NCBI RefSeq assembly: GCF_900141875.1
Contig: NZ_FQZE01000004.1
Location: 124,001-188,000 of the forward strand
DNA length: 64,000 nucleotides
Source: Tangfeifania diversioriginum
Lineage (GTDB): Bacteria > Bacteroidota > Bacteroidia > Bacteroidales > Prolixibacteraceae
Reading direction: 5' to 3'
Shown: piece by piece, positions 443-9,225 of the stretch
Numbering within the stretch: the stretch's first letter is position 1
Layout of the letters: each line of letters begins with the position of its first letter
Position numbers and translations under genes: made by a program
Notes under the pieces: generated by a model
The model's input: only the letters and a program-made list of their open reading frames with translations
The model's database searches: none
What the model was told of the DNA's origin: nothing

Positions 443-1399
443 TTACTCTGAAGTGGTTTGATCTACCTGGTATTTATTGCGGTCGGTGGCGCTGCGCGAA
501 ACAAGTTCGCCCAAAAAGCCGGCCAGGAAAAACTGTGCTCCAATAATCATTGCCGTTAAAGCGATATAAAAATAGGGACTGTTGGTTAATAAGTTGCCCA
601 CAATTCCGTGCTTCAGCTGAATAATTTTTTCAACCCCCAGCCAGATGGCGGCAGCCAGACCAACCATAATCATCAGAATGCCGAGCACGCCAAAAAAGTG
701 CATGGGGCGTTTTACAAACCGCGATATGAACATTACCGACAACAAATCGAGCGGCCCCCTGATAAAGCGTTCTACCCCGAATTTTGTTACACCATATTTT
801 CGTTCGCTGTGCTGAACCACTTTTTCGCCAATGTTGTTGTAACCTGCCCATTTGGCCAAAACGGGAATGTAGCGGTGCATTTCGCCATAAACTTCAATGC
901 TTTTTACCACATTTTTGCGGTACGCTTTCAGGCCACAGTTCATATCGTGCAATTTTATTCCCGTCATGCGGCGCACTGTCCAGTTATAAAATTTACTGGG
1001 CAAATTTTTGGTTAATACCGGATCTTTTCTTTTTTTCTTCCAGCCTGATACCAGGTCGTAGCCATCTTCCTTTACCATGCGGAAAAGTCCGGGGATTTCA
1101 TCCGGGTTGTCCTGCAGGTCGGCATCCATGGTTATTACCACATCGCCCTGCACAATGTCAAATCCACAGAAAAGGGCAGCCGATTTTCCGTAATTCCGCC
1201 TGAACTTGATTCCTTTAATGTTTGAATTTTCTTTTTGAAGATTTTGGACCACCTTCCATGAATTGTCGTTGCTGCCATCGTCAATCATTATGATTTCGTA
1301 TGAAAACCGGTTTTCATCCATCACGTTTTTAACCCACGAGGCCAGTTCCGGCAACGATTCCTCTTCATTAAACAAAGGTACAACTACGGAAATATCCAT
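443..1399 (-). CDS. Glycosyltransferase family 2, GtrB/DPM1-like
   Basis: The 318-residue protein has a GT-A fold of the dolichyl/undecaprenyl-phosphate sugar transferase type. Visible motifs are VPLFNEEESL at about residues 7-16, DDGSNDNS at 40-47 (nucleotide-sugar binding) and DADLQDNPDE at about 92-101, whose DxD-like aspartates bind the metal. Two transmembrane segments follow at about 232-256 and 275-297, as in GtrB/ArnC-type enzymes that transfer a sugar from a nucleotide donor to a polyprenyl phosphate on the cytoplasmic membrane face. Length is normal for the family. The gene is 18 bases from the DUF4199 gene upstream and 13 bases from the membrane protein downstream. The actual sugar cannot be told from the sequence. 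Confidence 0.9.
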   Translation of the reverse strand: MDISVVVPLFNEEESLPELASWVKNVMDENRFSYEIIMIDDGSNDNSWKVVQNLQKENSNIKGIKFRRNYGKSAALFCGFDIVQGDVVITMDADLQDNPDEIPGLFRMVKEDGYDLVSGWKKKRKDPVLTKNLPSKFYNWTVRRMTGIKLHDMNCGLKAYRKNVVKSIEVYGEMHRYIPVLAKWAGYNNIGEKVVQHSERKYGVTKFGVERFIRGPLDLLSVMFISRFVKRPMHFFGVLGILMIMVGLAAAIWLGVEKIIQLKHGIVGNLLTNSPYFYIALTAMIIGAQFFLAGFLGELVSRSATDRNKYQVDQTTSE

Positions 1400-1417
1400 T
1401 CTTTTAATCGGTACTTT

Positions 1418-1945
1418 TTATTCTACAATATCTTCTGAGGGATTCTTTTTAGTAAAAATGGAGGTAATCAGAGAAATAATTAATCCAGCAAAAGTGCCAA
1501 CCAAAATCCCTGAAAGAGCCATAATCCATGGTTTTTGAAACCGGCTGGCCATTTCTATTGCCATATCCATTTGCGCTTCAGGTACATTGCCCTGTTTTAC
1601 AATTTGTTCTTCGGTGAAAAGTCGCAATTGCTCCTGCAACGAAGGATCGATTACAGTGTAGAGCAGGTAGGTGTAAATTGAAGATAACACAGATGCAAAG
1701 AGGACGGTTAATACGCCCACTCCCAGCGCCTGGCCGTAATTCATTGTGCCACCGAGCGTTTTTCGGTAGGCAAGCTGGGCTACAGCAACGCCGGCAATCA
1801 TGATAGCGTAACTAACCCATTGTGAGGATTTTGAAAATGTATTTCCGGTTACATAGTAAACAACCGAAAGCAAAATAACAGCCACACCCAAATAAATTCC
1901 ATAAGTAAGTGATGTTGACCAGATTGATGAAGATTTTTGTTCCAT
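1418..1945 (-). CDS. DUF4199 family membrane protein
   Basis: This 175-residue protein has four hydrophobic segments at about residues 12-33, 43-60, 70-97 and 138-163, a soluble loop between the last two, and a short charged tail. This layout, and its place directly before a GtrB-like glycosyltransferase, fit the Bacteroidota DUF4199 family, whose role is unknown. A TATATTTG box matching the Bacteroidota -7 consensus lies upstream on the minus strand at 1983-1976, so this gene probably heads the operon. I see no good -33 box. Function is not assigned. Confidence 0.8.
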   Translation of the reverse strand: MEQKSSSIWSTSLTYGIYLGVAVILLSVVYYVTGNTFSKSSQWVSYAIMIAGVAVAQLAYRKTLGGTMNYGQALGVGVLTVLFASVLSSIYTYLLYTVIDPSLQEQLRLFTEEQIVKQGNVPEAQMDMAIEMASRFQKPWIMALSGILVGTFAGLIISLITSIFTKKNPSEDIVE

Positions 1946-2107
1946 GATTATTTGTTTTTAAGGTAAAGTATCTTGCAAATATAGGCTATTTTTTTTCGGA
2001 TGATAAATACAGTACCTAAAATATGTTGCAAAAGAACCTATTCAAAAACGCTGCAGGCGGCATTTACTATTGCTTTAAAATATTTTTAGTGAAACTTTCA
2101 GGTTTAA

Positions 2108-2138
2108 TTTGTGGGATATATAAAATTTTCTACTTTTG
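2108..2138 (+). promoter_or_regulatory. Bacteroidota-type promoter of the SRP RNA
   Basis: TTTG at 2108-2111 and TACTTTTG at 2131-2138 are separated by 19 bases, matching the Bacteroidota primary sigma consensus TTTG-N19-21-TAnnTTTG. The predicted start falls about 5-7 bases after the -7 box, at the 5' end of the SRP RNA. Confidence 0.8.
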
Positions 2139-2143
2139 TCGCC

Positions 2144-2240
2144 GGGTAAGTCCTGTGCGACCAGCTCCTGCTGAATTCCCCCAGAGTCGGAAGGCAGCAA
2201 GGGTAGGCGGTTGTAGCGGTGCGACACAGGTAGCTTACCC
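2144..2240 (+). ncRNA. ffs: Signal recognition particle RNA, small bacterial type (4.5S)
   Basis: The roughly 97-base RNA folds into one long hairpin. GGGTAAG at 2144-2150 pairs with CTTACCC at 2234-2240, and CCTGTG near 2152 pairs with CACAGG near 2225. The apical part holds the conserved SRP domain IV: a GGAA tetraloop flanked by the asymmetric GGCAGCA internal loop at about 2190-2200. It binds Ffh and acts in co-translational targeting of membrane and secreted proteins. A T-run directly after the closing helix (2243-2249) would end transcription. A consensus promoter lies just upstream. Exact ends are inferred from pairing. Confidence 0.92.
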
Positions 2241-2285
2241 ACTTTTTTTGACAGAAAAAAAAGGTATTGAAAGTTTGAAAAAAGG

Positions 2286-2317
2286 TTTGCAGATTAAAAA
2301 ATAAATTCCTTACTTTG
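2286..2317 (+). promoter_or_regulatory. Promoter of the tRNA-Thr/tRNA-Tyr operon
   Basis: TTTG at 2286-2289 and TTACTTTG at 2310-2317 are 20 bases apart, one mismatch from the Bacteroidota TTTG-N19-21-TAnnTTTG consensus. Transcription would start about 2323, leaving a leader of about 70 bases before tRNA-Thr. Confidence 0.6.
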
Positions 2318-2395
2318 CGCCGCTGTTTTTAAAAAGCAAACGTTCTGAAAGTACTGAAAAGAAAGGCCGGATATAAAAACGGTTTGAAATAAGAT

Positions 2396-2469
2396 GCCGG
2401 ATTAGCTCAGTTGGCCAGAGCACGTGATTTGTAATCTCGGGGTCGTCAGTTCGAATCTGACATCCGGCT
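2396..2469 (+). tRNA. tRNA-Thr (anticodon UGU)
   Basis: A complete cloverleaf can be drawn. Acceptor GCCGGAT (2396-2402) pairs with ATCCGGC (2462-2468). The D-arm is GCTC...GAGC, the anticodon loop is TTTGTAA giving anticodon TGT, and the T-arm is GTCAG-TTCGAAT-CTGAC. The anticodon stem has one T-T mismatch (CGTGA/TCTCG). The discriminator base is T2469 and CCA is not encoded. It is followed 12 bases later by tRNA-Tyr, and the two are probably processed from one transcript. Confidence 0.93.
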
Positions 2470-2481
2470 CAAAAAATATCC

Positions 2482-2563
2482 GGGGAGATACCGAAGCGGT
2501 CAAACGGGGCAGACTGTAAATCTGTTGGCTAAGCCTTCGTAGGTTCGAATCCTGCTCTCCCCA
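2482..2563 (+). tRNA. tRNA-Tyr (anticodon GUA)
   Basis: This is a class II tRNA with a long variable arm. Acceptor GGGGAGA (2482-2488) pairs with TCTCCCC (2556-2562). The anticodon stem-loop is GCAGA-CTGTAAA-TCTGT with anticodon GTA, and the T-loop is TTCGAAT. The discriminator is A2563 and CCA is not encoded. It is the only intact tyrosine tRNA here; three damaged copies of its 3' nine-tenths follow in tandem. Confidence 0.94.
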
Positions 2564-2568
2564 CAATC

Positions 2569-2609
2569 AAAAGGGTTAAGTTGTTGAAATACAGTTTAAT
2601 CCTTTTTTT
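2569..2609 (+). terminator. Intrinsic terminator of the tRNA operon
   Basis: AAAAGGGTTAA at 2569-2579 can pair with TTTAATCCTTTT at 2595-2606, followed by a T-run to 2609. The same hairpin recurs in the two downstream spacers (about 2765-2804 and 2983-3023). After the last tRNA-like copy it is only partly preserved. Confidence 0.75.
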
Positions 2610-2655
2610 ATGTTCCGACATTTCCCAACTTTATTCAAATAAAATATTTAAAACA

Positions 2656-2759
2656 CCGAAACGGTCAAACGGGGTCCCGAGTGCTCGGGATAAATCTGTT
2701 GGCTAAGCCTTCATAGGTTCCCCCAGAGGGAAGCCTTCGGCAGAATCCTGCTCTCCCCA
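2656..2759 (+). pseudogene. tRNA-Tyr-like decayed copy 1
   Basis: The copy matches tRNA-Tyr from base 10 to the end but lacks the 5' acceptor strand. The 5' half of the anticodon stem-loop is replaced by a self-complementary stretch, TCCCGAG-TG-CTCGGGA, which removes the GTA anticodon. The T-loop is opened by about 22 extra bases containing AGAGGGA and GCCTTCGGC. It cannot form a normal tRNA. Confidence 0.85.
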
Positions 2760-2851
2760 CATTTAAAAGGGTTAAGTTGTTGAAATACAGTTTAATCCTT
2801 TTTTCATGTTCCGACATTTTCCAACTTTATCCAAATAAAATATTTAAAACA

Positions 2852-2977
2852 CCGAAGCGGTCAAACGGGGTTCCGAGCACTCGAGATAAATCTGTTGGCT
2901 AAGCCTTCGTAGGTTCTCCCAGAGGGATCACTTCGTGGTCCCAGAGGGATGCCTTCGGCAGAATCCTGCTCTCCCCA
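2852..2977 (+). pseudogene. tRNA-Tyr-like decayed copy 2
   Basis: This copy has the same architecture as copy 1, with the anticodon-arm palindrome slightly decayed (TTCCGAG-CA-CTCGAGA). The T-loop insert is enlarged by about 22 bases to two linked hairpins, ATCAC-TTC-GTGGT and TGCC-TTC-GGCA, each preceded by CCCAGAGGG. The 3' acceptor strand TCTCCCC is kept but has no partner. Confidence 0.85.
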
Positions 2978-3069
2978 CAATCAAAAGGGTTAAGTTGTTG
3001 AAATACAGTTTAATCCTTTTTTTATGTTCCGACATTTCCCAACTTTATTCAAATAAAATATTTAAAACA

Positions 3070-3195
3070 CCGAAACGGTCAAACGGGGTCCCGAGCACTC
3101 GGGATAAATCTGTTGGCTAAGCCTTCGTAGGTTCTCCCAGAGGGATCACTTCGTGGTCCCAGAGGGATGCCTTCGGCAGGATCCTGCTCTCCCCA
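3070..3195 (+). pseudogene. tRNA-Tyr-like decayed copy 3
   Basis: It has the same length and inserts as copy 2, from which it differs at about four positions. The anticodon-arm palindrome is perfect here (TCCCGAG-CA-CTCGGGA). After this copy the spacer diverges within about 25 bases and the array ends. Confidence 0.85.
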
Positions 3196-3400
3196 CAATC
3201 AAAAGGGTTAAGTTGTTTAATATCAGCGTAATCTTTTTTTATTGCACAACATTCTGAAAAACTCATTAGTTTAGGGGGGCTTTCAGGCTAAAAATAGCTG
3301 AGGCTTTTCGCATCATTATTTTCCTGTGTTATGTTTCCTTCTTCCTGGTTTTTTATTGAAAATTTCTCGTTATGATTGCTCGCTGGCGGCCAATTATTAG

Positions 3401-4558
3401 TTATTTGTATAACCACGCCTTATCAAGAAGGGTAATGTCAGTAACAGATAATCCCGTTCCTGCCGTTCTGTCCCCGGCGCAGTTTCCCAATAAAATATGC
3501 TCATTGTCAGCAAAATGAATAGCGATATAACAATACCACCCATCAGGATCGGTATTTATATTTTTAATGTAATCCCATGTTTTTCCCTCGTCTTTCGAGA
3601 TTGCTGTGGTAAGGGGCGTTCTTTTTCCTTTTATGTCAGGATTTGTTCCGTCATTATTATTCCACACCAGCAACCAGTCATTTGATCCCGGAATTTTTTC
3701 AATTGTGGCAGGAGATACAGGCGAGGGAATATTGCTTATTTCTATATGACTCCAGGTCTCTCCGCGATCGGAAGAAAAAGATAATTGCTGAAATCCTCCG
3801 CTCGCACGGATATACATCATAACACTTCCGTCCTTCATTTCAATCAATCCGGGTTCCTGGGTAATGATATCGGTAGTGTTGGGGACTTTTTCACTTGAGT
3901 GCCACGTTTCCCCATTGTCGTCAGAATAATAACTAAATAAATCTGCCTGATTTTTCCATTCTCCATCCGGTGTATTATGCAATGCCACCGGCATAACCAA
4001 CCTTCCGTCTTCCAGTTGGATTACCCGGTCGTTATTGAGTACAAAATAGCCTTCTTTATCTGTAATGCAAGGAACAGCATCGCTCCATGATTTTGCTTCA
4101 TCTTTGGAAATACGCATCATCGGGATACAATCTTCTGTTGAATTTTTTTTCAAATAAAACAGGGCAATATCGTTGTTTTGCAACCGCAATAACGAAACGG
4201 ACATCACATTCATTTCCCCTTCATTGGCTACAATAACTTCATCCTCCTCTGTCCAGGTTTTTCCACCGTCATCCGAATAGCGACCCGCAAGAAAAGCGGG
4301 ATCATGATCGTCACCAGCCCCCGCGGTATAGTGGCTATAAACAAACAAAACTCTCCCGTCTTTTAGATTTATAAAATCTCCCTCGCTGTTGCGGGGATTG
4401 TTCTCTGAAGGGGATAGTTTTAAAACTGTTGTAGGTTCAGTAATTTTTACATTTTCTTTTTTTTTACTTGAACAGGATGCAAATAAAAAAATCGTAGTCA
4501 GAGCAAAAAATCCCAAATGCTTTAGGTGCCAATGTTTTAAAAATTTTACTTCTTTCAT
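3401..4558 (-). CDS. Sialidase-like (BNR/Asp-box) lipoprotein
   Basis: The protein has a lipoprotein signal ending in LFASC at about residues 25-29, so it should be exported and lipid-anchored. Four Asp-box motifs of the form SxDxGxTW are visible: YSDDGGKTW, YSDDNGETW, SSDRGETW and SKDEGKTW. They mark a six-bladed beta-propeller of the exo-alpha-sialidase/BNR superfamily (GH33-related). About 385 residues is normal for single-domain members. I use the ATG at 4558 because it puts the signal at the N-terminus; an in-frame ATG at 4588 is possible. The substrate may be a sialic-acid-like or other terminal sugar, as many Bacteroidota members are not proven sialidases. The gene stands alone. Confidence 0.82.
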   Translation of the reverse strand: MKEVKFLKHWHLKHLGFFALTTIFLFASCSSKKKENVKITEPTTVLKLSPSENNPRNSEGDFINLKDGRVLFVYSHYTAGAGDDHDPAFLAGRYSDDGGKTWTEEDEVIVANEGEMNVMSVSLLRLQNNDIALFYLKKNSTEDCIPMMRISKDEAKSWSDAVPCITDKEGYFVLNNDRVIQLEDGRLVMPVALHNTPDGEWKNQADLFSYYSDDNGETWHSSEKVPNTTDIITQEPGLIEMKDGSVMMYIRASGGFQQLSFSSDRGETWSHIEISNIPSPVSPATIEKIPGSNDWLLVWNNNDGTNPDIKGKRTPLTTAISKDEGKTWDYIKNINTDPDGWYCYIAIHFADNEHILLGNCAGDRTAGTGLSVTDITLLDKAWLYK

Positions 4559-4837
4559 CTCATTTAATTTTCTATCGGCATTAACCATTGTAATTTCAGA
4601 GTTGCGCTTTAAGGCTCACTTTGAAAAAAAATTGATATAATAAGTTTTCTGAACCTACAAAAAGTAATGCAATATCGCAATGCCATTCCTTACGAAAAGA
4701 TATCGCATGAATATGACGATTGCAAAGTAGTTAGATTTAATAATATGAATATAGTCAAAGTGTTTAAATACCATTTTTATAAACAGATGATGTTTCCTGT
4801 AAAATTATCATATTTGCATTCAGTTTACCTGGAGAAA

Positions 4838-5179
4838 ATGAAAGATAATTGGCCGCTTTTTACTGGACTCGCACTGTTGGCAGCAGGAATAATTTTCAGA
4901 ATTATTTTTGATGCTGCCCCTTTCTCCACTATTTTAATTGGGGGCGGGATTTTTTTAAAAGTGTATTTTGTATTTTACCGGATTAAAAGCACCAAATACC
5001 GGCCAGGGGTTGAGCTGTTATTCCTGATTTTAGGTTTAGCTTTTTTCTTTTCAGGAATGTATTTTGATAAATCATTCACGGTTATTGAACCGGTAATTTT
5101 AAAAGTTACAGGAATCATTTTGAAAGTGATTTTTGTACTTTTGTTCATTCAGAAAACCAAGATTAAATTAAAAAAATGA
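4838..5179 (+). CDS. Small multi-pass membrane protein, function unknown
   Basis: From ATG 4838 the frame encodes about 113 residues with hydrophobic segments near residues 6-22, 27-44, 57-72 and 82-101, and a Lys-rich tail. The ATG at 4838 is preceded by GGAG five bases upstream, rare for this genome. The frame is open back to ATG 4667, but that extra part looks like translated AT-rich spacer. The stop overlaps the start of the next gene as ATGA, indicating translational coupling. Family not recognised. Confidence 0.6.
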   Translation: MKDNWPLFTGLALLAAGIIFRIIFDAAPFSTILIGGGIFLKVYFVFYRIKSTKYRPGVELLFLILGLAFFFSGMYFDKSFTVIEPVILKVTGIILKVIFVLLFIQKTKIKLKK

Positions 5180-5685
5180 TTAAAAAAGTTTTTGTAAGCC
5201 AAATAATCTTGTCCATTATGCTATTAATCCCATGCACATCAGCATTGGCACAGCATAATCACAGTCATGATTATGACCACCACGATGAGCATAAATTTCA
5301 CATCGGAGTAGGAGCAGGAGCTGCATCTTTTTCGGGAGAAAGTGGTTTGGAACCAGCTCTGCATTTGCATTTACTACGGAAATTAAATGCCGAAAGCAAT
5401 TGGAGTCTCGGGATAGGTTATGAGGGAATTATAGGTGAAGAATGGCACAATGGCGTGAATTTTTTGGTGAATTACCGGCCGTTTCATTTTCTTTCTTTTA
5501 ACGCGGGCCCGGGGATAGTTTTCGAAAAAGAGCAGAACGAAACTGAAGTTTTGCCGGCTTTCCACGCTGAGAGTGTTTTTGAATTTACCATTTCCGGCAT
5601 TCACCTTGGACCAATGCTGGGAGTTGGTTTTAACAAAGAACACACCCACTTTTCGGCCGGAATTCATTTGGGATTCGGATTTTAA
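5176..5685 (+). CDS. Exported His-rich outer-membrane-type beta-barrel protein
   Basis: A signal peptide covers about residues 1-26 (cleavage after ALAQ). The mature protein starts with a His/Asp-rich segment, HNHSHDYDHHDEHKFH, followed by alternating short beta-strands rich in Gly and aromatic residues (GVGAGAASF, SLGIGYEGI, LSFNAGPGIVF, GIHLGPMLGVGF), ending GIHLGFGF. An aromatic C-terminal residue is typical of outer-membrane barrels. With about 143 mature residues it would form a small, roughly eight-stranded barrel. The His-rich start suggests divalent metal binding, which is inference. It is coupled to the preceding membrane protein gene by a 4-base overlap. Confidence 0.65.
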   Translation: MIKKVFVSQIILSIMLLIPCTSALAQHNHSHDYDHHDEHKFHIGVGAGAASFSGESGLEPALHLHLLRKLNAESNWSLGIGYEGIIGEEWHNGVNFLVNYRPFHFLSFNAGPGIVFEKEQNETEVLPAFHAESVFEFTISGIHLGPMLGVGFNKEHTHFSAGIHLGFGF

Positions 5686-5728
5686 GGCGCAATTTCGTTA
5701 TTTTTATCGTGCTAACAAATAATGAGTA

Positions 5729-6214
5729 ATGTCGCACAGAATAAATCAATTCAGCAATGGCGGTTTTATTGAATTTGACACCGGCAGTTTTGATGAATGG
5801 TGTGTATTTGTAACACGTTCAAATGGGAAACGCTTTGCCCCCACAGATATTCAGTATTTTTCGCGGCTTAAAAAACTTGGCGAGAAATATGGTTCATCGA
5901 AAATTTATGATGATTTTGTAGTTGTTTTTAACCGCACCCAACCCGGTGTAGATCCCAACACCCTGAAGTTAATCCATTTTCTCAGCCGGTTTTATGAAAA
6001 AGATGCGCTTGAAGTTGAAATCTGGTTTAACGTATTGTACGCAGGGATGATTGCCGAAGAGAACAAGGAAAAGGCCATTTTGGGCAAACGAATAAAAAGA
6101 TTGGGGATGTACCAGGTTTTAATTGAGAATTTTAACCCCGAAGAGGCGGCTGTATTTAGCAAAGGAAAAAAGTGGAAGGAACTGCACCAGTTGATGAAAA
6201 AACGAGGCTTTTAA
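5729..6214 (+). CDS. Uncharacterised conserved Bacteroidota protein (possibly DUF7004)
   Basis: This 161-residue soluble protein has no signal peptide. It starts with a GGFIEFDTGSFDEWCVFVT-like segment, continues with the pattern YFxRLKKLGEKYG and is helical and charged in its second half (residues 95-160). The N-terminal pattern resembles a small family I associate with DUF7004, from memory only. No catalytic motif is apparent. It stands 43 bases after the barrel gene and converges with the UspA gene, leaving only nine bases between stops. Confidence 0.6.
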   Translation: MSHRINQFSNGGFIEFDTGSFDEWCVFVTRSNGKRFAPTDIQYFSRLKKLGEKYGSSKIYDDFVVVFNRTQPGVDPNTLKLIHFLSRFYEKDALEVEIWFNVLYAGMIAEENKEKAILGKRIKRLGMYQVLIENFNPEEAAVFSKGKKWKELHQLMKKRGF

Positions 6215-6223
6215 CGTTCAAAA

Positions 6224-7090
6224 TTACAACTCAAAATCGACAGGCATAGGATTTAAAAAACGGTTAACTGTAAATACAGGTATCTGGCTTCCGTGCACAA
6301 TTTCAGAAACAAATTTTCCAATTTGTGTACCTGCCATGTTTGATTCCTGGTGGGTACGCAAAATTATCAACCCCGGATTTTCTTTTTTAATGTAATCGAG
6401 AATGACTTCATGTTTTTCCTTCCCCTTGGCTTTTAAAATATCCACATCGCATTTAATGTTCCTTTCAAGCAATATTTGCTTCAATTTTTCGGCATTTTTC
6501 CATGCCAGGCTTTTTTTTGCTGAAATATTTAAACTCAGGGAGGATACAATTTTTATGGTTGCTCCATATTTTTTTGCAAAATAGGTGGCCCACAACAGTT
6601 TCTTTTTTGTTGATTGTGAAATATCTACCGGGATGACAATTTTTTTAATTTCACCTACATAATAATTCTTGTTTACGCTTAACACAGGACATTCCGACCG
6701 GCTGATTATTTTATCAGTTTCCTCACGGGTTAAACCTCCTTCGGGTTCACTTTTATCGATAATCATAAATTCATAACCCCCCATTTTAGCTTGCCGTAAC
6801 AACACTTTCCCGGGATTTCCCATTTTTACCCTGTAGGTTAAATTATCGCGTACTTTTCCTTGTATGGATTGTTCTACGACCTCCTGCAGGTGCCTAAGTG
6901 CTTCTTTCTGCAAATATTCGCTTATTTTGGGATTAAACAATCGTTTAAAAAAAGAGGGTTCATCAATAATGTTGTAAATAAAAATACGCATTCCCAATGC
7001 TTCCTGGAAAAACAGAGTTTGCTTTAGTACTCCTTCTCCTTCTTTATTGGGACGTACAAGTGCTAATATATTATTTGTTCTGTATCGCAT
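6224..7090 (-). CDS. Universal stress protein, tandem UspA domains
   Basis: The 288 residues form two UspA alpha/beta domains (about 1-140 and 145-288). The first begins ILALVRPNKEGEG and the second KKIVIPVDISQSTKKKL, with the usual D-x-S of the ATP-binding strand. The end (GTQIGKFVSEIVHGSQIPVFTVNR, paraphrased as G-x2-G-x9-S/H-x-P-V) carries the phosphate-binding pattern in partly changed form, so nucleotide binding in domain 2 is possible. Double-domain Usp proteins are common in Bacteroidota and act in the cytoplasm in stress survival. It is a single gene, convergent with the upstream plus-strand gene. Confidence 0.87.
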   Translation of the reverse strand: MRYRTNNILALVRPNKEGEGVLKQTLFFQEALGMRIFIYNIIDEPSFFKRLFNPKISEYLQKEALRHLQEVVEQSIQGKVRDNLTYRVKMGNPGKVLLRQAKMGGYEFMIIDKSEPEGGLTREETDKIISRSECPVLSVNKNYYVGEIKKIVIPVDISQSTKKKLLWATYFAKKYGATIKIVSSLSLNISAKKSLAWKNAEKLKQILLERNIKCDVDILKAKGKEKHEVILDYIKKENPGLIILRTHQESNMAGTQIGKFVSEIVHGSQIPVFTVNRFLNPMPVDFEL

Positions 7091-7216
7091 TCAAAACTAA
7101 TCTTTCGTTCATCCACAATATACGAAATTAAGTTGATGCTGGTTTACATATATTTTGTAAAACATATTTTCTTTTCAAAAAAAGCACTCAAATAATTTAT
7201 CAGAATGGAAATAAAA

Positions 7217-8230
7217 CTACTGCAGCCGCTTCGATACCTGGAATGCTTTTGCAGGATTTGTTACAAAGAGCTGGTGGACATCCTGCTGGCTGAGACCGGC
7301 ATCGCGCAATGCGGGAATCAATATATTTTCGATGTCGGTAAATCCCCTGAAACTTCCGCCACCGGGCTCGCCGGGTTTGTACCAACCTGCATCGTGCGAG
7401 AAAAGCATATTTTTCAGAAATCCGTGCTTTTTCATTTGTTGTGCAAAATCGACAAAACGTTCTGTACGGTCTGGATTGAAATTATCGAAAGCAATCCAGG
7501 ATCCAAGCGCTGCTGCTTCAAAATGTTTGTCGATATCTTTTTCGTTGTGGGCATGCGTCCAGATAAATGCTGACGGATGAATGCCATACTCTTCCAGAAT
7601 TTTAATTTGTTCAAATGCAGGTTCTGCCAGCCCGGTATGCGACATAATGGTGAGGCCCGTTTCTTTGTGCGCCATGCAGGCGGCTTCCACAACTTTCCGG
7701 TTGATCTCTTCCAGTGGACCGCGCTCCACGGCAATTTTTATGAACCCGGGATAAACTCCAGTTTCTTCAATTCCGTTGCGGGCCTCGTCAATCCAGCGCT
7801 CGGCCAGTTGGGAGGCGGTTTCGGTAAACGCGTGTTCGGGCAGAAACTTAGCATTCACCGCACTGTAATAGCCTGTATTTGTAATAAGTTGAATACCCGA
7901 TTTTTTACTGAGTATTTTTAGCAATTCCGGGTCGCGCCCCAAATATGCCGGTGTGCATTCTATTAGTGTTTTGTAGCCCATCTCTTTAATTTCAATGAGA
8001 TAGGGGAGGACTTTCTCCACCACGCTGTCGCGATTCCAGCGATGGTATCCCGTACTGTCAGCCCCAATGAAATCAACCAGCAAATGTTCATGATGCAAGG
8101 TTTTGCCCATTGCTCCCGAAGGAATTTCTCCATTCACAGTTATCACTTTAGGTTCACGAATGTTGCATGATGTAAATATTGCAACCACAAAAAGTCCGAT
8201 AAGTAGCTGATTTGCACTCATTATTTTCAA
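7217..8230 (-). CDS. Phosphotriesterase-family lipoprotein (amidohydrolase fold)
   Basis: The 337-residue protein carries a lipoprotein signal with IFTSC at residues 18-22. The metal ligands of the phosphotriesterase group are visible: H47-E-H49, K165 in FIKIAVE (the carboxylated lysine), H198 in SHTG, H226 or H228 in THAH, and D280 in SHDAGWY. The C-terminal NPAKAF motif is also typical. It should be a binuclear-metal hydrolase at the cell envelope; such PTE homologues are often lactonases or phosphodiesterases, and substrate cannot be told. It is followed downstream only by the UspA gene, with 126 bases between. The start could be ATG 8221. Confidence 0.88.
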   Translation of the reverse strand: MKIMSANQLLIGLFVVAIFTSCNIREPKVITVNGEIPSGAMGKTLHHEHLLVDFIGADSTGYHRWNRDSVVEKVLPYLIEIKEMGYKTLIECTPAYLGRDPELLKILSKKSGIQLITNTGYYSAVNAKFLPEHAFTETASQLAERWIDEARNGIEETGVYPGFIKIAVERGPLEEINRKVVEAACMAHKETGLTIMSHTGLAEPAFEQIKILEEYGIHPSAFIWTHAHNEKDIDKHFEAAALGSWIAFDNFNPDRTERFVDFAQQMKKHGFLKNMLFSHDAGWYKPGEPGGGSFRGFTDIENILIPALRDAGLSQQDVHQLFVTNPAKAFQVSKRLQ

Positions 8231-8289
8231 AATTTTGAAACAAGATACAAAATCGACGGAATTCAGAAAAATGAAAAGTGGGAGTAGGA

Positions 8290-9225
8290 TTATTTAATTC
8301 TGCGGGCTTTTCTTTTTCTAACAACCAGAAAAGCTCCCGAAATGACGAGTACAGCACCCAAAATGGTAGTTAGCGAAAATCGTTCGTGGCTGATCCAACT
8401 CACTTCGAGCGAAGTCAGGATTCCCATGGTAATGAAGGTGATAATCGGGTTCAGAAAAATAATGACGCTTACTTTATTGGCTTCGATAAATTTCAGTGCC
8501 TGTGCCAGCGAGCTGTAGGCGATGAAAGTGTTTGCACCGAGAAACAGAATCAGCAACCACCAGGTCCAGTGAAGTTGGAGAACAGGCGCAAGATTAATAA
8601 AAGGCAGGTAAATAACTGCCGGAAAACCGAAAAGAAACAGGTTGAGCATTTGTCCGGGATGAACCGTTACCAGCTTTTTTTGCATGGTAGCATAAGCAGC
8701 CCAGGCCAGTGCACCACTCAGTGTAAACAAAACGCCGAGGTTATACTGCTCTTTTCCATCGAAAAATGCCAACAGCTGATCGCGGTAAAAAAAGGCAAAT
8801 CCTGCCAGCGCCACAAAGAAACCAATCATTTGCCGGCGCGAGAGTTTTTCTTTGAAAATCAGGAACCCGGCCAGTGCCAGGGTAAGCGGACCAAACTGAA
8901 TAAATAGCTGAGCGTTGCTCGGAGTGGTATAATTTATCCCCAACATAAAACCGAGGTAATTCCACGACAGTGCAATGGCTGCCAAAACCAGCAGAAAGGG
9001 TGGTTTTATCAGAATCTTCAGGCTGGAAGGAGAGCGATATAACTGCCAGCCTAGCAGAATGACAAAAGCAATAAAAAAGCGAAACCAAACAATAGTAATC
9101 GGTTCAATCTCCTGAACCGCCACTTTTAACGCGATGGCCAGAAAGCCCCAGAAGAAGGCGGTTACACAAGCATAAATAATACCTTTTGTTTGGTTTTGCA
9201 TATTTGAATTTCTTGAATCAGGCAA
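8290..9225 (-). CDS. EamA/DMT-superfamily permease
   Basis: The 311-residue protein has ten hydrophobic segments in two EamA repeats (about residues 9-140 and 155-300) and a basic C-terminus (RKRKARR). The first repeat shows AFFWGFLAIALK and PSNAQLFIQFGPL, the second GALAWAAYATMQKK and NPIITFITMG, as in DMT exporters of metabolites. The direction and substrate are unknown. An ATG at 9201 (MQNQTKG) is an alternative start. It lies 15 bases after the toxin gene on the same strand. Confidence 0.88.
   Translation of the reverse strand: MPDSRNSNMQNQTKGIIYACVTAFFWGFLAIALKVAVQEIEPITIVWFRFFIAFVILLGWQLYRSPSSLKILIKPPFLLVLAAIALSWNYLGFMLGINYTTPSNAQLFIQFGPLTLALAGFLIFKEKLSRRQMIGFFVALAGFAFFYRDQLLAFFDGKEQYNLGVLFTLSGALAWAAYATMQKKLVTVHPGQMLNLFLFGFPAVIYLPFINLAPVLQLHWTWWLLILFLGANTFIAYSSLAQALKFIEANKVSVIIFLNPIITFITMGILTSLEVSWISHERFSLTTILGAVLVISGAFLVVRKRKARRIK

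Follow-up and report, generated by a model that had tools for sequence, protein, structure and literature searches.

Hairpin-bearing partial tRNA copies in Tangfeifania diversioriginum and a putative phylum-wide class linked to small GIY-YIG nuclease genes

Introduction

Several systems are known in which tRNA genes, short hairpins or small nuclease genes form repeated or dispersed arrangements. In Escherichia coli, the tyrT repeats (rtT RNA) stand in tandem 3' of tRNA-Tyr, and each includes part of the 3' end of this tRNA; the recurring tRNA stretch is just 19 nt long, and neither hairpin inserts nor nuclease genes are known from these repeats. REP elements, which go together with RAYT transposases, are short palindromes dispersed in the genome. 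The double-hairpin or repetitive hairpin elements of mitochondria are very short hairpin units that are thought to be mobile. Lastly, SegB is a GIY-YIG homing endonuclease that has been implicated in cutting tRNA-containing DNA and whose nuclease activity is needed, in phage T6, for the tandem amplification of a tRNA-Tyr segment (PMC13096335). Neither hairpin-bearing partial tRNA copies nor chromosomal cassettes of a GIY-YIG gene and a tRNA are described in the open-access titles and abstract openings that we searched.

Here we analyze an array of partial tRNA-Tyr copies in a stretch of 64,000 nucleotides (the window) from Tangfeifania diversioriginum, a member of the Bacteroidales. All coordinates given without a locus name are those of the window. 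We find that similar tRNA arrays, often with a small nuclease gene, lie beside many tRNA genes in relatives. The array is, as far as sequence comparison can tell, one member of a phylum-wide class that is coupled to GIY-YIG genes, a conclusion that goes beyond an earlier note on this DNA, whose interpretation is partly supported overall.

Results

A tRNA-Tyr array with inserts at two fixed places

The intact parent gene of the array, tRNA-Tyr(gta), is located at 2482-2564 on the + strand, as are the neighboring tRNA-Thr and the copies, spacers, and inserts of the array, and is called by both ARAGORN and Rfam (59.1 bits). Its upstream neighbor is an intact tRNA-Thr(tgt) at 2396-2470 (ARAGORN, Rfam), and a Bacteroidales small SRP RNA (RF04183; 2137-2244) lies just 5' of this pair. 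Consistent with the earlier note, the tRNA-Tyr gene is followed by three partial copies, at 2655-2760, 2851-2978, and 3069-3196. Each is preceded by a spacer (2565-2654, 2761-2850, and 2979-3068) that measures 90 nt, not the 92 bases claimed before, and that contains a terminator-like stem-loop (2569-2606, 2765-2802, and 2983-3020). The claim that two spacers are identical holds for spacers 1 and 3, over all 90 nt; spacer 2 departs from them at 5 of its 90 positions. The final tail 3' of copy 3 (3197-3243) at its start resembles spacers 1-3 and then diverges. Across the array region there are four terminator-like stem-loops, against 1.5 expected in shuffles. All three copies run from base 9 of the tRNA, rather than from base 10 as had been stated, to its end; the 5' acceptor strand is absent and the acceptor stem therefore cannot form.

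The copies share the same two insertion points, as had been noticed. In 3/3 copies, the bases CAGACTG (the 5' anticodon strand and the first bases of the loop) are swapped for a 16-nt palindrome, at 2675-2690, 2871-2886, and 3089-3104. The palindrome of copy 1 is the reverse complement of that of copy 3, and the palindrome of copy 2 is imperfect. The second insertion point is in the T-loop, between TTC and GAA (GGA in copy 3). The insert here had been described as a hairpin that is doubled in copies 2 and 3; we find that it is indeed doubled there but that the unit is two 4-bp hairpins, not one. Specifically, each 22-nt unit consists of two 11-nt hairpins, both with a 4-bp stem and a 3-nt loop (for example, TCCC-AGA-GGGA and then TCAC-TTC-GTGG or TGCC-TTC-GGCA). 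One unit follows the TTC of the T-loop in copy 1 (2721-2742), while two tandem units are present in copy 2 (2917-2960, made up of 2917-2938 and 2939-2960) and in copy 3 (3135-3178, made up of 3135-3156 and 3157-3178). Within the window, four sites fit the 22-nt pattern with up to two mismatches, and all of them belong to copies 2 and 3 (0.08 expected from shuffles); the unit of copy 1 deviates more from it than the others do.

The copies are not recognized as tRNAs. In this region ARAGORN and Rfam call only the intact Thr and Tyr genes, and these two are also the only ones in the window to reach the RF00005 cut-off, below which the copies fall. The copies fold only 1.6 to 2.2 sd below shuffles. 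The stretch 2482-3245 contains no ORF that reaches 80 aa, none of the ten GIY-YIG matches of this genome lies in the array, and the nine neighboring ORFs at 443-9225 contain no integrase or phage family according to Pfam.

Partial copies beside other tRNA genes of the genome

A scan of the genome gave 44 tRNA matches. The 36 stretches covering them hold 43 ARAGORN genes, 42 of them distinct, and one further stretch held only a tRNA-Pro tail. Partial copies flank at least 11 of the 42 distinct tRNA genes: Tyr and Val(tac) with three copies each, Asp(gtc) with five, Ser(gga) and Gly(ccc) with two each, and Ser(gct), Val(gac), Ala(tgc), Met(cat), Gln(ttg), and Thr(cgt) with one each. The total is at least 21 partial copies in addition to the tRNA-Pro tail, which is on contig C17 and free of inserts. 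These counts are minima, and the Asp array was found through its palindromes, not by the copy scan. In 19 of the 22 copies a palindrome or double hairpin occupies the T-arm and/or the anticodon arm; the exceptions are the Gln and Thr copies, which have another, longer insert, and the Pro tail. At seven loci (13 copies) the insert is directly 3' of the TTC of the T-loop, and in the Val(tac) copies the 22-nt unit is reversed in orientation. The tRNA parts that adjoin the hairpins are often unchanged.

Two further observations concern inserts of other kinds. The Gln copy (L149, about 2145-2180) and the Thr copy (L117, about 1915-1960) have their different insert in common, starting with GGGCGAGAAGTTTATCC / GGGACGAGAAGTTTATCC. 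On contig C73, a tRNA-Lys(ctt)-like gene (L126, 1995-2091) has a long extra stretch in its anticodon region; a normal tRNA-Lys(ctt) is also present, on contig C45.

The 22-nt unit and short palindromes genome-wide

The unit, TCCCNNNGGGATNNCTTCGNNG, has 45 matches with up to two mismatches in the 4.78-Mb genome (43 places, two of which were read on both strands), while a reversed-pattern control has none. Its stems vary yet remain paired through compensatory changes, with CCC/GGG, GCC/GGC, TCC/GGA, and CAC/GTG as variants in hairpin 1 and CA/TG, GC/GC, CG/CG, CC/GG, and CT/AG in hairpin 2. The units occur in both orientations, and in 12 of 17 distinct contexts (up to one mismatch) a larger stem, as judged by eye, encloses the unit in its loop. 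In one instance the palindrome GCGGATTC|CGATCCGC exists both filled with the 22-nt unit and empty. The same family of inserts is thus found in further tRNA copies and also in the loops of other hairpins. Together with the two orientations and the palindrome seen filled and empty, this fits the earlier suggestion of a mobile mini-hairpin that targets tRNA loops, in the wider form of an element that enters hairpin loops. Of 18 close unit matches, nine are in tRNA copies, a share that is inflated by tandem amplification, and the remainder are elsewhere or unchecked. Twice, in the Ala copy and at L043, a unit is nested in another unit at position 13. The 16-19-nt palindromes of the form TCCCGAN(1-8)TCGGGA are found at 35 places in the genome (control, 0), of which seven are in the Tyr and Asp arrays; at least these seven lie in tRNA copies, and the remainder are elsewhere or unchecked.

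On contig C28, GCGGATTC[22-nt unit]CGATCCGC palindromes stand on either side of an interrupted ORF (L022, 2414-3164) that by eye is like a REP-associated tyrosine transposase; Pfam gives no match at 0.001 for its part at 2562-3164. Mobilization by a RAYT/REP system was considered and rejected: the genome has eight Y1_Tnp matches, a scan of seven of these loci gave three weak structural matches and no consensus 22-nt unit, and the RAYT-like remnant is without a Pfam match. In a separate observation, TCCCGATAGTCATCGGGA and close forms sit in a longer, dispersed MITE-like element (L258, L260, L261, and L262) with the layout CTTAGTCG[palindrome]GAGATAGGG on one strand.

Coupling to small GIY-YIG nuclease genes

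At some loci the partial copies come with a nuclease gene. The Ser(gga) repeats each hold an 81-aa ORF, and another such ORF precedes the Met copy; both match PF01541, the second with a query that was only approximate at the N-terminus. The tRNA-Asp array has four nuclease-less units and then one GIY-YIG unit, all with the same kind of T-arm palindrome. By mixing both unit types, this array links the nuclease-less and nuclease-bearing forms. Eight of the 11 tRNA loci with copies in this genome have no nuclease gene nearby.

The protein of the Ser cassette was matched in 33 of 61 genomes (T. diversioriginum and 60 relatives). We studied the surroundings of 70 GIY-YIG loci, a non-random sample of 30 taken as the best per genome and 40 chosen by hand, which represent 68 distinct places. 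In 30 of the 68, ARAGORN calls a same-strand tRNA no more than 900 bp upstream, though in a few cases (L159, L171) the tRNA so called may be a degenerate copy. Five other places have a tRNA only downstream, two only on the opposite strand, and 31 none, including one (L178) where the GIY-YIG match was not recovered on a re-scan. At these 30, the usual order is tRNA, nuclease, and hairpin-bearing tRNA fragment. Using blastn, we find a piece of the upstream tRNA behind the GIY-YIG gene in 23 of the 30, and by eye such a piece is also behind the gene at L183, L189, and L203. A GC-rich inverted repeat is present in the 170 nt behind the gene at 23/30 loci, compared to 9/30 before the tRNA and 5% of shuffles; the test failed at the other seven, and the 23 loci with the repeat and the 23 with the tRNA piece are not all the same. 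Examples of these loci include a tRNA-Asn with seven GIY-YIG units in G026 (L220), Val(tac) in G060, G007, G003, and G031, Gly(gcc) in G008 and G034, Met in G025 and G013, and Thr in G048. The palindrome cores vary among genomes and stay palindromic, for instance TCCCGATGTCCATCGGGA versus TCCCGACGTACGTCGGGA in two Asn arrays. At L160 (G038), many tandem tRNA-Val-like copies surround two GIY-YIG genes.

We compared the nuclease genes in pairs. The Ser cassettes of T. diversioriginum and Draconibacterium differ with pS 0.82 and pN 0.13, and the Asn pair has a dN/dS of 0.12. Constraint is weaker in the Asp pairs, with dN/dS of 0.31 and 0.49 and masked bases in one row. Purifying selection is strong on the Ser and Asn nuclease genes and less so on those of Asp. 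In a nuclease tree with few columns and many open forks (26 labeled rows, 15 tRNA kinds), there are 16 changes of tRNA label compared to a shuffle mean of 19.2, and 1 of 300 shuffles is as low; nuclease lineage follows tRNA kind more than expected by chance.

The class in relatives and across the phylum

A scan of genome contigs with the exact pattern of the T-loop insert identified five stretches. Four are at tRNAs: Ser(gga) with two GIY-YIG units in Draconibacterium, Val(gac) in Mariniphaga, Ser(cga) with a GIY-YIG gene and four copies (both by eye) in a Bacteroidales MAG, and Ser(cga) in a Neomarinimicrobiota MAG. In the Draconibacterium Ser(gga) array, hairpin 2 is CAC/GTG versus CCC/GGG in Tangfeifania. 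The Val locus of G028 matches Mariniphaga sp. KA03 with 100% identity across 3022 bp, which, given the kinship of G028, puts T. diversioriginum in one family with Mariniphaga. The fifth stretch (L115, Lachnospiraceae) has no tRNA call and its surroundings are not tRNA-like by eye, and we regard it as a chance match; lone matches to the 22-nt unit in most relatives also look like chance.

A pattern joining the D-stem end AGAGCN to TCCCGA..TCGGGA has 84 matches, false positives included, in 48 of 395 phylum genomes, compared to two matches for the reversed pattern and 11 matches in 10 of 395 genomes for a shuffled flank. There are no matches in T. diversioriginum itself because the D-arm of its tRNA-Tyr differs. 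Among 30 loci inspected, 13 have an intact tRNA upstream on the same strand and 10 have a GIY-YIG gene. No tRNA is called at the match in L236, L238, L239, L240, and L246, and L241 was discarded as a false positive, since it is an ordinary, complete tRNA-Ala in which the anticodon arm by nature matches the pattern. At several Ala(ggc) loci the copies are upstream of the intact gene. Upstream tRNA-Ala copies end at GGTTC| in L243 and elsewhere than TTC in L224 and L228.

For tRNA-Tyr, the query was matched in 115 of 120 family genomes, among the matches listed, and partial Tyr matches are present at 6 of the 29 loci that we read. In G028 and G496, 5'-partial Tyr copies lie upstream, carry a palindrome at the same spot as in the window array, GGGG[..]TAAATCTG (GGAG in one of the two G496 copies), and end at GTTC| of the T-loop. 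A downstream Tyr copy with a T-arm palindrome is found in G025 and G496, imperfect in the latter. Only short 3' pieces of tRNA-Tyr are present in G516, G522, and G534.

Discussion

The full cassettes described above comprise an intact tRNA, a small GIY-YIG gene, a partial tRNA whose anticodon arm and/or T-arm carries hairpins, and a terminator. This anatomy recurs, its inserts are at fixed places, and it is coupled to conserved nuclease genes. The explanation that we favor, tentatively and with somewhat less than even confidence, is that these loci are a chromosomal family of SegB-like tRNA-homing cassettes in Bacteroidota, that the Tyr array is a nuclease-less member, and that the hairpins mark or destroy the cut site. 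The nuclease would cut tRNA genes, and repair via the tRNA's own sequence would duplicate part of the tRNA plus the spacer or nuclease gene, with the partial copy acting as a homology arm. Palindromic hairpins in the T-loop and anticodon arm would keep the extra copy from being cut, and from working as a tRNA, and would in this way protect it; the cassettes would be mobile, and unequal exchange would expand the units in tandem. In the window array, only units of tRNA fragment and terminator would remain, either moved in trans or left behind.

The homing-cassette explanation is supported by the recurrence of copies beside 11 of 42 tRNA genes, the mixed Asp array, the coupling to GIY-YIG genes, the purifying selection, and the agreement of nuclease lineage with tRNA kind, and also by the SegB precedent and the Tyr copies of two other genomes, with their palindrome at the same spot and their stop at GTTC|. 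Counting against it are the lack of a nuclease gene in the window array and near 8 of the 11 loci of this genome, and the intact tRNA, which retains its T-loop and anticodon arm yet would have to escape cutting. So do the units and palindromes at non-tRNA places, the inverted-repeat test (7/30 loci fail and 9/30 upstream controls pass), the 31 of 68 GIY-YIG places with no tRNA near, the weaker constraint in the Asp pairs together with the sparse tree, and the Ala copies of L224 and L228 that do not end at TTC. A more specific version, which we consider rather unlikely, is that of a widespread chromosomal class of selfish tRNA cassettes in which a minimal GIY-YIG nuclease lands at the conserved T-loop and the anticodon arm, exchangeable mini-palindromes in the displaced copy are its resistance marks and ends, and the nuclease-less arrays are non-autonomous satellites. 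In general, these tRNA “shadow arrays” point to selfish DNA of a tRNA-linked kind that has not been described.

A credible though doubtful alternative is that the copies are neutral tRNA fragments, that generic mini-palindromes enter hairpin loops, and that the nuclease genes are passengers. Ordinary recombination would tandemly duplicate tRNA ends, the palindromes would be short mobile or template-switched sequences, and partial copies would tolerate palindromes that working tRNAs do not. The unit's presence in the GCGGATTC|CGATCCGC loop, for which the empty form exists, in other stem-loops, and nested twice in itself agrees with this view, as do its two orientations and compensatory stem changes and the placement of only 7 of 35 TCCCGA..TCGGGA palindromes in the Tyr and Asp arrays. 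However, copies and GIY-YIG genes go together in a tRNA-gene-copy order, 9 of the 18 close unit matches are in tRNA copies, which make up a tiny share of the genome (tandem amplification inflates this number), and the tRNA parts beside the hairpins are often unchanged. Both main readings may hold together, with palindromes as the mutational raw material and the nuclease as the reason for the copies. Plain decay, by comparison, is rejected, in keeping with the earlier note, as arrays that are independent of each other have their hairpins at the same two fixed places.

It is improbable that read-through transcripts of the array are functional RNAs, that is, tRNA-like decoys or regulators barred from translation by their hairpins. 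Decoy or regulator roles have reportedly been proposed for rtT RNA and some pseudo-tRNAs, the hairpins here are preserved by compensatory changes, and a terminator-like stem is retained with each spacer; however, the copies barely fold better than shuffles (1.6 to 2.2 sd), an acceptor stem is impossible, and every unit sits 3' of a terminator-like stem. The duplicated tRNA 3' ends that adjoin the tRNA could also suggest attachment-site remnants of islands or prophages integrated at tRNA 3' ends, and the earlier note had listed a failed integration site among its readings. This is very improbable given that the nine ORFs at 443-9225 are without an integrase or phage family in Pfam, that the copies contain the terminator and start near base 9, and that several genomes have upstream 5'-partial copies. 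Finally, the sequence comes from a contig assembly, and a short repeat could be assembled wrongly, but an artefact of this kind is hardly believable when the copies differ mutually (one versus two units, a flipped palindrome, point changes) and many genomes that were assembled separately show the class as well.

If the homing-cassette explanation is true, the tRNA-homing nucleases of phages have a counterpart on bacterial chromosomes, one that generates pseudo-tRNA arrays and lengthens them, with very short palindromes returning at set positions of the tRNA. This would offer a direct test bed for the spread of 16-22-nt palindromes. The explanation also suggests that cassettes are where many of the small GIY-YIG proteins annotated behind tRNA genes belong.

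Comparison with known systems

The Tyr array is like E. coli tyrT in having tandem repeats 3' of tRNA-Tyr and unlike it in its hairpin inserts and in belonging to a class linked to nucleases. The organellar double-hairpin elements and the 22-nt unit are both very short and made of hairpins. The two hairpins of the 22-nt unit covary, one of its sites is seen both filled and empty, and it may be mobile; unlike in the organellar elements, its sites are loops of tRNA copies and other hairpins of a bacterial chromosome. A nuclease gene is absent from the window array and present inside related arrays (PF01541), and the class is associated with tRNAs (30 of 68 places with a same-strand tRNA just upstream). 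In SegB and the SegB-like free-standing nucleases, the setting is phage and the amplified segment holds a full-length tRNA gene (PMC13096335), whereas the bacterial arrays are truncated copies with palindromes on chromosomes, and that of the window is without a nuclease. Two likenesses stand beside these differences: a small GIY-YIG gene located next to tRNAs of many kinds, and the tandem amplification of a tRNA-containing segment (PMC13096335). The nearest precedent of the proposed cassette family is SegB of phage T6.
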